64,000 nt of DNA from Actinotalea sp. JY-7876 (GTDB lineage: Bacteria; Actinomycetota; Actinomycetes; Actinomycetales; Cellulomonadaceae), in assembly GCF_014042015.1 (NCBI RefSeq), contig NZ_CP059493.1, forward strand, positions 3,472,001 to 3,536,000, written 5' to 3'. Within the stretch, counting starts at the first letter, position 1. The number at the start of each line of letters is the position of its first letter. The translations under genes and the position numbers were made by a program. The notes beneath the pieces were generated by a model that had not been told where the DNA came from, searched no databases, and saw only the letters and a list, made by a program, of their open reading frames with translations. Of the stretch, positions 38,952-40,334 are shown piece after piece.

Positions 38952-40334
38952 CTACATGCCCGCGGGAGCCATGTCGACGAAGCGCGCGTACTGGCCCTGG
39001 AAGGCGACGACGAGCGTGTCCGTGGGCCCGTTGCGGTGTTTGGCGACGATGACGTCCGCCTCGCCGGCCCGGGGCGACTCGCGCTCGTAGGCGTCCTCTC
39101 GGTGCAGCAGGATGACGATGTCGGCGTCCTGCTCGATGGAGCCGGACTCGCGCAGGTCGCTCATCTGCGGCCGCTTGTCCGTGCGCTGCTCGGCGCCACG
39201 GTTGAGCTGCGAGATCGCGATGACCGGGACCCCGAGCTCCTTCGCGAGGAGCTTGAGCGCGCGCGAGAACTCCGAGACCTCCTGCTGGCGCGACTCCACG
39301 CGCTTGCCCGAGCTCATGAGCTGCAGGTAGTCGATGACGACGAGCTTGAGGTCGTGGCGCTGCTTGAGCCGCCGGCACTTGGCCCGGATCTCCATGAGCG
39401 ACATGTTCGGCGAGTCGTCGATGAACAGGGGCGCCTGCGACAGGCGGCCCATGGTCGACGCGAGCTTCTGCCAGTCGTCGTCGCGCATGGTGCCCTTGCG
39501 CATGTTCTGCAGGGGCACGCGGGCCTCGGCGGCGAGCATGCGCATGGTGATCTCGTTGCGGCTCATCTCGAGGGAGAAGATCACCGACGTCATCTGGTGC
39601 TTGATCGACGCGGACCTGACTATATCTATGCCCATTGTTGACTTTCCGATGGCCGGACGCGCCGCAAGGACGATCATCTGGCCGGGGTGCAGACCGTTCG
39701 TGAGCTTGTCGAGCTCGATGAAGCCCGTGGGCACGCCCGTCATGCCGTCGCCGCGGTTGCCCGCGGCCTCGATCTCCTCCATCGTCCCGTTGATGATGTC
39801 GGCGATCGGGAGGTAGTCCTCGCTGGTCCGCTGCTCGGTGACCGCGTAGATCTCGCCCTGGGCGCTGTTGACGATCTCGTCGACGTCGCCGCCGTCGGTC
39901 GCGTAGCCGAGCTGGACGATGCGCGTGCCCGCCTCGACGAGGCGGCGCAGGACGGCGCGCTCGCGCACGATCCGTGCGTAGTACCCGGCGTTGGCCGCCG
40001 TCGGCACCATGGAGATGAGCGTGTGCAGGTAGGGCGCGCCGCCGATGCGGGAGATCTCGCCGCGCTTGGTCAGCTCCGCCGCGACCGTGACCGCGTCGGC
40101 CGGCTCGCCGCGGCCGTACAGGTCGAGGATCGCGTCGTAGACCAGCTCGTGCGCGGGACGGTAGAAGTCCATCCCCTTGATCTGCTCGACGACGTCGGCG
40201 ATCGCGTCCTTCGAGAGCATCATGCCGCCGAGCACGCTCTGCTCCGCGGGGATGTCCTGCGGGGGGGTGCGGTCGAAGCCCGGGCCGCCCGCCGGCGCGC
40301 GCCGCAGTCCCTGCTCGAGCTCGTCGATGCTCAC
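38952..40334 (-). CDS. dnaB: Replicative DNA helicase
   Basis: DnaB is the hexameric helicase that unwinds DNA at the replication fork. The 460-residue protein has the N-terminal helical domain (about 25-130, PPQDIPAEQSVLGGMMLS), a linker, and the RecA-like core: Walker A ARPAIGKSTMG (K231), Walker B LKLVVIDYLQLM, H3 AISQLNRGAEQR and the C-terminal DLRESGSIEQDAD. No intein is present, but codons 229-240 at Walker A are AT-rich and rare (see the separate entry). GTG 40334 gives the standard N terminus. The gene normally follows rplI in actinobacteria; here a MATE gene on the other strand lies between. Confidence 0.97.
   Translation of the reverse strand: MSIDELEQGLRRAPAGGPGFDRTPPQDIPAEQSVLGGMMLSKDAIADVVEQIKGMDFYRPAHELVYDAILDLYGRGEPADAVTVAAELTKRGEISRIGGAPYLHTLISMVPTAANAGYYARIVRERAVLRRLVEAGTRIVQLGYATDGGDVDEIVNSAQGEIYAVTEQRTSEDYLPIADIINGTMEEIEAAGNRGDGMTGVPTGFIELDKLTNGLHPGQMIVLAARPAIGKSTMGIDIVRSASIKHQMTSVIFSLEMSRNEITMRMLAAEARVPLQNMRKGTMRDDDWQKLASTMGRLSQAPLFIDDSPNMSLMEIRAKCRRLKQRHDLKLVVIDYLQLMSSGKRVESRQQEVSEFSRALKLLAKELGVPVIAISQLNRGAEQRTDKRPQMSDLRESGSIEQDADIVILLHREDAYERESPRAGEADVIVAKHRNGPTDTLVVAFQGQYARFVDMAPAGM
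39612..39650 (-). other. AT-rich rare-codon island at the dnaB P-loop
   Basis: Codons 229-241 read ATC GGA AAG TCA ACA, then ATG GGC ATA GAT ATA, then GTC AGG TCC. Two ATA codons, TCA, ACA, GGA and AGG are all very rare in the rest of dnaB and this window. About 40% of bases 39616-39650 are G or C, against roughly three quarters around them. The Gly-Lys / Ser-Thr junction, where actinobacterial P-loop inteins insert, lies in the middle (39642/39641). Confidence 0.85.

Follow-up and report, generated by a model that had tools for sequence, protein, structure and literature searches.

Synonymous rare codons at the empty P-loop intein site of dnaB in Actinotalea sp. JY-7876: a probable rewritten target of a homing endonuclease

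At the point in dnaB where relatives of Actinotalea sp. JY-7876 carry an intein, this bacterium has no intein and instead has a short run of codons that are scarce in the rest of the gene. From the comparison of sequences, we consider it probable that this run is a homing-endonuclease target in which synonymous, mostly rare codons have replaced the ordinary ones, and that it would resist homing. Comparable recoding recurs among relatives at both of the dnaB intein sites, and it is rare in genes of the family whose P-loop site is occupied by an intein.

Materials and Methods

The window is the whole 64-kb stretch of the Actinotalea sp. JY-7876 genome that we analyzed, and L numbers are our handles for individual loci. 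Relatives were compared in two sets. The family set comprised 146 loci, 134 of them distinct, from which 129 high-GC genes were kept (97 with a free and 32 with an occupied P-loop site), while the class set comprised 226 distinct rows, of which 173 were kept. Identical sequences were counted once. Genes entered the counts only if their GC3 was at least 0.88 and enough of their codons could be aligned. Twenty intein-bearing genes and the class set were picked among the matches listed, and the counts that involve them give no prevalence. At the second intein site, the H4 motif, the flanks were testable in 5 of 27 occupied and 101 of 102 free family genes.

We refer to a stretch as recoded, or as an island, when it reached p<1e-4 in an amino-acid-specific exact test, run per gene and per 20-codon window with the windows moved in steps of ten. 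For the comparison of divergence, 45 genes with p>=0.01 served as plain, unrecoded genes, and the 11 intein-free genes with values between 1e-4 and 0.01 were excluded.

Results

The product of dnaB contains both DnaB domains (Pfam DnaB_C, E=2.4e-108; DnaB N-terminal domain, E=1.6e-33) along with a Walker A motif, whose GKST occupies codons 230-233, and it belongs among the DnaB replicative helicases. Its reading frame runs uninterrupted through K231/S232 and G398/S399, which sets it apart from intein-bearing dnaB genes. A search of the genome for a match to the P-loop intein and for the TIGR01445 intein model found neither (Table 1). That model detected 0 of the 7 P-loop inteins of the genus; the P-loop inteins whose sequences were inspected (see below) start with Ala, and the standard model therefore misses this type.

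Table 1. Features of the dnaB region of Actinotalea sp. JY-7876, in window coordinates
Feature	Position	Strand	Basis
dnaB, replicative DNA helicase, 460 aa, without intein	38952..40334	minus	ORF, Pfam, and genome-wide intein search
Recoded island, codons 222-241: 8 AT-ending codons plus AGG	39612..39671	minus	codon test, divergence profile
Island core, codons 229-241	39612-39650	minus	codon reading
Empty P-loop intein insertion point, between K231 (39642-39644) and S232 (39639-39641)	39641..39642	minus	junctions in relatives
H4-motif intein site, codons 389-408, empty point G398/S399, 0 AT-ending codons here	39111..39170	minus	codon test

A preliminary description of this DNA had reported a patch of rare codons at codons 229-241 of dnaB (39612-39650), along with a drop in G+C to about 40% over 35 bases. 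Our reading bears out both. The codons in question are ATC GGA AAG TCA ACA ATG GGC ATA GAT ATA GTC AGG TCC. Outside the island, GGA occurs once in the gene (codon 9), while TCA, ACA, ATA, GAT, and AGG occur zero times. The whole gene has 16 codons with A or T at the third position, and 6 of these lie within codons 230-238. With CTT at codon 223 and CGT at codon 226 included at its edge, the island, whose AGG is codon 240, is somewhat wider than had been described. The G+C content reaches its minimum at 39616-39651 (14/35), which is the sole 35-bp stretch with <=40% G+C in the 64-kb window. When codons 222-241 were evaluated against the background of the gene using codon rates from the family, 8 of 19 testable codons were AT-ending compared to an expectation of 0.22 (amino-acid-corrected exact test, p=3e-12), and the same test with rates from the class yielded p=4e-12.

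The island is also where synonymous divergence peaks along dnaB, both in comparison with L003 and in comparison with L004. Relative to L003, 12 of the 19 island codons differ, as opposed to 17% of codons elsewhere, and the amino acids differ at 0 of 20 positions. The dnaB gene of Actinotalea ferrariae (L032), with 97% identity, has the same codons as L003 from 222 to 248. At the DNA level, the site in the Actinotalea sp. JY-7876 gene is thus far from both ordinary and occupied alleles, and the protein is kept. A 28-base sequence from the island was present in 0 of 199 other family genomes with <=3 mismatches allowed, and neither its exact form nor a degenerate, AT-rich form of the island was found in any viral contig. 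We also considered an internal promoter, a terminator, or an Rfam RNA as the role of the island and found none of these; the 64-kb window contains no match to an Rfam RNA and no sigma-70 promoter-like site.

The suggestion that the patch coincides with an intein site is upheld by relatives whose dnaB is interrupted at K231/S232. Of 36 other family genomes, 12 have a P-loop intein, among them 7 of 18 within the genus. The C-side junction reads ..HN/S in 16 intein-bearing relatives, and both sides of the junction read GK/S in 36 high-GC intein-bearing genes, which puts the insertion within the P-loop at GK/ST. Mycobacterial DnaB has two inteins, DnaBi1 in the P-loop and DnaBi2 in the H4 DNA-binding motif, and their insertion points, the P-loop serine and the H4 motif, are the same as those of the inteins in our relatives (PMC6195587). 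DnaBi1 of M. smegmatis is without an endonuclease domain (PMC6195587), whereas all six of the P-loop inteins of relatives that we scanned match one. Unlike the intein-bearing mycobacterial genes, dnaB of Actinotalea sp. JY-7876 is without an intein, and its P-loop site is recoded.

The model LAGLIDADG_3 scored above the Pfam cutoff in every intein scanned, six from the P-loop and two from H4. The 11 P-loop inteins whose sequences were inspected have 321-501 residues, save for one mini form of 141. All 11 start with Ala and have no first-position nucleophile, as is the case for class 3 inteins, while the intein of L126 starts with Cys. Among the six scanned P-loop inteins, the one at L321:903-2138 gave the best LAGLIDADG match, and the P-loop of its host is recoded, with 9 AT-ending codons. 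The endonuclease of L321 is a candidate for adaptation to a rewritten target. At H4, the +1 serine (codon 399) is encoded by AGC in 7 of 11 occupied sites versus 15 of 162 free ones, a pattern that looks like the co-conversion of one codon with the intein. At the protein level, GKSVLGIN replaces GKSTLGID just after the Walker A lysine (dnaB codons 230-247) in a Promicromonospora/Myceligenerans-like group (L020, L021, L051, L059, L060, L061, L063, L121, and others), which is an unusual change of protein at the site of DNA recoding.

Inteins occur in other genes of relatives as well, namely, in recA (L135, L142), in radical-SAM Rv2578c (L137-L141, L144), and, in one relative each and named by sequence reading, in a ribonucleotide reductase, NrdJ (L143), and in SufB (L150). 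From a reading of their sequences, the TIGR01445 matches L145, L147, and L149 resemble the Hint domains found in large secreted proteins of the polymorphic-toxin type more than they resemble inteins.

When codons 222-248 were lined up, many intein-free relatives with very high GC3 proved to have an AT-rich rare-codon stretch of their own at this place. Across 60 distinct intein-free genes, the plain mean of AT3 is highest at codons 225-238 and next highest at codons 391-403, the H4 intein site. In the family, recoding affects the P-loop in 41 of the 97 genes with a free P-loop site and H4 in 30 of the 101 testable genes with a free H4 site; the H4 site is unrecoded in the Actinotalea sp. JY-7876 genome yet recoded in many of its relatives. 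Along the 97 family genes with a free P-loop site, islands are most frequent in two windows, codons 230-249 with 41 genes and codons 390-409 with 23, and there are 0 islands in the ten-step windows within codons 30-199 and within codons 260-369. In the class set, where 131 genes have neither intein, islands were found in at most 21 of these genes around the P-loop, in at most 14 around H4, in at most 4 downstream at codons 410-449, and in 0 or 1 elsewhere, save for the shoulders of the peaks. Because the P-loop and H4 are the two known intein sites of dnaB, the placement of the islands supports the rewriting of targets. Recoding at H4 trails downstream to about codon 440, with islands in 10, 6, and 3 of the 97 genes at codons 410-429, 420-439, and 430-449, respectively, and this trail is wider than one usual recognition site.

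The preliminary description had proposed an alignment of dnaB across the family, and that alignment gave island codons that vary among relatives, some of which bear inteins, as opposed to rare codons conserved family-wide with no intein-bearing relative. Nor were islands found scattered at random among the genes covered: they occurred in no window of 42 intein-free recA genes of relatives (a further 2 bear an intein) and in no window of 20 intein-free radical-SAM Rv2578c genes of relatives (a further 5 bear an intein), and the 64-kb window holds no second 35-bp minimum of G+C. We had considered an extension of recoding to other intein sites of relatives and rejected it for recA and radical-SAM Rv2578c, whose sites are unrecoded. 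Chance or relaxed codon usage is exceedingly improbable as the source of the island. Nothing speaks for it beyond genes with somewhat lower background GC3, and against it stand the p=3e-12 in the Actinotalea sp. JY-7876 gene, obtained relative to that gene's own background and amino acids, and the lack of islands in dnaB windows away from both sites and in all of the recA and radical-SAM windows tested.

An argument can also be made that slow or rare codons were selected for translation or folding, or that the DNA or RNA serves some other function, in which case the overlap with intein sites would be incidental since inteins favor conserved motifs. Consistent with this argument, groups with few islands show a mild excess of AT3 at the P-loop. 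In group f35 (13 genes), AT3 at the P-loop was 29 observed versus 13.9 expected; no gene reached p<1e-4, and one reached p<1e-3. In L069-L111 (42 genes), it was 179 versus 123.6 expected, with two islands. This milder excess counts against the interpretation that recoding confers resistance. Nevertheless, the Walker B region of dnaB (windows 320-349) is without islands in both the family and class sets, recA has a P-loop of its own and islands in no window, and the island sequences of dnaB differ between lineages. Furthermore, recoding is scarce in occupied family genes, and none reaches p<1e-4 in a clade of 12 intein-free rows on the gene tree (L377, p=2e-4). A role in translation would not lead one to expect that islands peak at both intein sites or that they are scarce in occupied genes, and it is therefore disfavored. 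With the negative searches for an Rfam match and a sigma-70 promoter-like site in the 64-kb window also weighing against a further function, we regard this explanation as very unlikely.

Within the family, the frequency of P-loop recoding differs between free and occupied genes. The site is recoded at p<1e-4 in 41 of 97 free genes versus 2 of 32 occupied genes (Fisher, 6e-5), and at p<1e-6 in 30 of 97 versus 0 of 32. Among 19 phylogenetically independent pairs of genes differing in intein state, recoding was opposite in 5.7 and the same in 1.5 (median p=0.22), meaning that the tree-corrected association between intein and recoding has the right direction and falls short of significance. Outside the family, free and occupied genes of the class set were alike, with >=5 AT-ending codons in 7 of 66 and 3 of 20, respectively. 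In free and occupied genes paired at a nucleotide distance <0.05, the free partner was recoded in 5 of 6 cases, two sharing one occupied partner.

The two sites can also be compared within the same gene. L119 has a P-loop intein and 4 AT-ending codons at the P-loop (p=0.01), while its empty H4 is recoded, with 10 (p=7e-12). Conversely, L028 has an H4 intein and 2 AT-ending codons at H4 (p=0.05), while its empty P-loop is recoded, with 10 (p=4e-12). Of 26 family genes whose P-loop holds an intein and whose H4 site is empty, 9 are recoded at H4. Some P-loops are occupied yet recoded, in the family L447 (p=1e-6) and L115 (p=2e-5), with L434 borderline (p=2e-3), and outside the family L321 and L319. 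Recoded genes are no closer to intein-bearing genes than unrecoded ones are (p=0.25).

These distributions bear on another proposal of the preliminary description, according to which the patch is a co-conversion tract or a scar of intein loss. Under this proposal, AT-rich flanks would have arrived with an intein from an AT-rich donor, such as a phage or a distant host, and would have stayed after the intein was lost. The island does sit at an intein site, inteins related to those of the P-loop are found in phages (for example, in a phage DnaB-like helicase, with 44% identity over 81% of the query), and the AGC codon at occupied H4 sites (7/11 versus 15/162) suggests that very short co-conversion may happen. 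Yet an intein-borne tract should match a donor, be shared, carry the donor's amino acids, and adjoin inteins, and our tests did not find this. When extein flanks were compared, those of occupied genes did not match the island, and 30 of 32 occupied family P-loops are without an island at p<1e-4. The 41 recoded P-loop genes have 41 distinct island sequences, and distant recoded pairs share AT-ending codons at a level near that expected from pooled choice (0.69 versus 0.66). No donor emerged among viral contigs, searched with the exact 28 bases and with the degenerate AT-rich form, or among the 199 other family genomes. Finally, 18 of the 41 recoded islands have zero amino-acid differences from the nearest non-recoded relative, and the gene of Actinotalea sp. 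JY-7876, with all 20 amino acids the same, is one of them. With most occupied flanks ordinary, the island unmatched in the family genomes and viral contigs searched, and the amino acids those of the host itself, we rejected a scar of co-conversion and loss as the main reading and consider it highly unlikely.

The changes in recoded genes are dense and mainly silent. Relative to the nearest non-recoded relative, 454 of 760 same-amino-acid codons differ in the island (60%), compared to 1868 of 10467 outside it (18%), while amino acids differ at 53 of 820 positions in the island (6.5%) and at 505 of 11439 elsewhere (4.4%). That all 41 islands are distinct and that 60% versus 18% of codons have changed argues against a scar of co-conversion and favors a rewritten target. 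In unrecoded genes compared with their own nearest relatives, synonymous differences amount to 31% in the P-loop window versus 17% elsewhere, and amino-acid differences to 5.6% versus 3.3%, indicating that this window evolves somewhat faster there too. The recoding goes beyond AT content, as reflected in an excess of AGG and AGA among arginine codons, which account for 28 of 75 in recoded islands and 13 of 3026 in the remainder of the genes; the corresponding counts are 4 of 87 for unrecoded windows and 8 of 63 for occupied windows. Likewise, isoleucine is encoded by ATT or ATA in 88 of 157 cases in recoded islands versus 12 of 2260 in the rest. By divergence profile, the recoded stretch measures about 42-70 bp, and the center of mass of change lies at codon 234 for the P-loop and codon 404 for H4. 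The gene tree requires no fewer than 24 gains or losses of the recoded state among intein-free rows, and 27 changes of intein state. Together with the 41 distinct island sequences, the 24 gains or losses point to convergent recoding.

Such a pattern might also be left as a mutational footprint. Repeated cuts by the endonuclease would be followed by error-prone repair of the breaks, purifying selection would keep mainly silent changes, and the process would stop once the site is no longer cut. The end product would still be a resistant site, and the driver would be mutagenic repair as opposed to selection on each change. The centering of the changes near the insertion points (codons 234 and 404) fits this account, as does dense change on short branches; for example, L371 and L445 differ at 15 of 19 island codons at 4% overall divergence. 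However, the changes spread about 10 codons to each side, which is far for errors of end repair, and a change of arginine from CGN to AGG requires first-base changes. In addition, amino-acid change is barely elevated (6.5% versus 4.4%), yet heavy mutagenesis of an essential gene would be costly, and 30 of 32 occupied family genes are without an island. We regard a mutational footprint as unlikely. Nevertheless, each change may have been selected, or the changes may have arisen in bursts as cut sites were repaired.

Discussion

Our results are best explained by the rewriting of a homing-endonuclease target. In this explanation, an intein with a LAGLIDADG endonuclease circulates in the family and homes into dnaB at its P-loop codons. 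Lineages that encountered the intein, Actinotalea sp. JY-7876 among them, would have piled up synonymous changes across the recognition site. The rewritten DNA would cease to match the endonuclease, and the essential protein sequence of Walker A would be kept. We infer both the block of cutting and the selection driven by the endonuclease. Between the two readings offered in the preliminary description, a scar or a recoded site that resists homing, the latter is better supported by location, synonymous rewriting, and recurrence, with resistance itself as a predicted property of the recoded site.

What has been described of homing endonucleases would help to account for the extent of the rewriting. 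Endonucleases of the LAGLIDADG-intein kind are reported to tolerate single synonymous changes (PMC3024317), and this tolerance would explain the need for many changes. In the haloarchaeal system discussed below, such an endonuclease reportedly cut the sites of a related species despite several mostly synonymous differences (PMC10643990), which would explain dense rewriting. Some of our observations count against the rewriting of targets. The recA and radical-SAM sites are unrecoded, some genes are both recoded and occupied, the tree-corrected association falls short of significance, and free and occupied genes are alike outside the family. Recoded genes are also no closer to intein-bearing genes than unrecoded ones, synonymous divergence in the P-loop window is elevated in unrecoded genes as well, and the recoded stretch is longer than the 14-40 bp that is usual for the recognition sites of such enzymes (PMC8966425).

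The closest described case that we have seen is that of mcm in Haloarchaea, where empty alleles of a replicative helicase resist invasion by an intein (PMC10643990). There, resistance is attributed to a change in the protein, a proline that follows the insertion point and would prevent splicing, and the site is still recognized by the endonuclease (PMC10643990). In the dnaB island, by contrast, the protein is unchanged, and the DNA alone differs. The open-licence PMC text that we searched yielded no account of a bacterial genome in which an intein site has been recoded synonymously.

A further comparison is with homing gene drives, for which target-site resistance alleles carry a changed target that the endonuclease should no longer cut. 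In the mitochondrial intron system of yeast, omega-n alleles likewise have a changed target. To our knowledge, the target-site resistance and omega-n alleles described so far involve one or a few changes, whereas the dnaB islands contain 5-14 AT-ending codons per 20, in many lineages and at two sites of one bacterial gene. On the basis of a predicted effect on cutting, the recoded allele would act like target-site resistance to a homing drive and is a candidate member of that class.

If the islands are resistant targets, they have consequences for how the dynamics of homing endonucleases are viewed. One published model considers three alleles: empty, occupied with a dead endonuclease, and occupied with a working one (PMC3229294). 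Resistant targets would add a fourth allele class, common in nature, to this three-allele scheme. This class could be scored from sequence and, through its codon-usage signature, would map past exposure to homing endonucleases. It would also be the equivalent, in nature, of the target-site resistance that arises against engineered gene drives. More generally, we lean toward the view that sequence-level immunity to a naturally occurring gene drive evolves repeatedly in bacteria, and that both dnaB sites in this family may be under an arms race, with rare-codon rewriting in many lineages.
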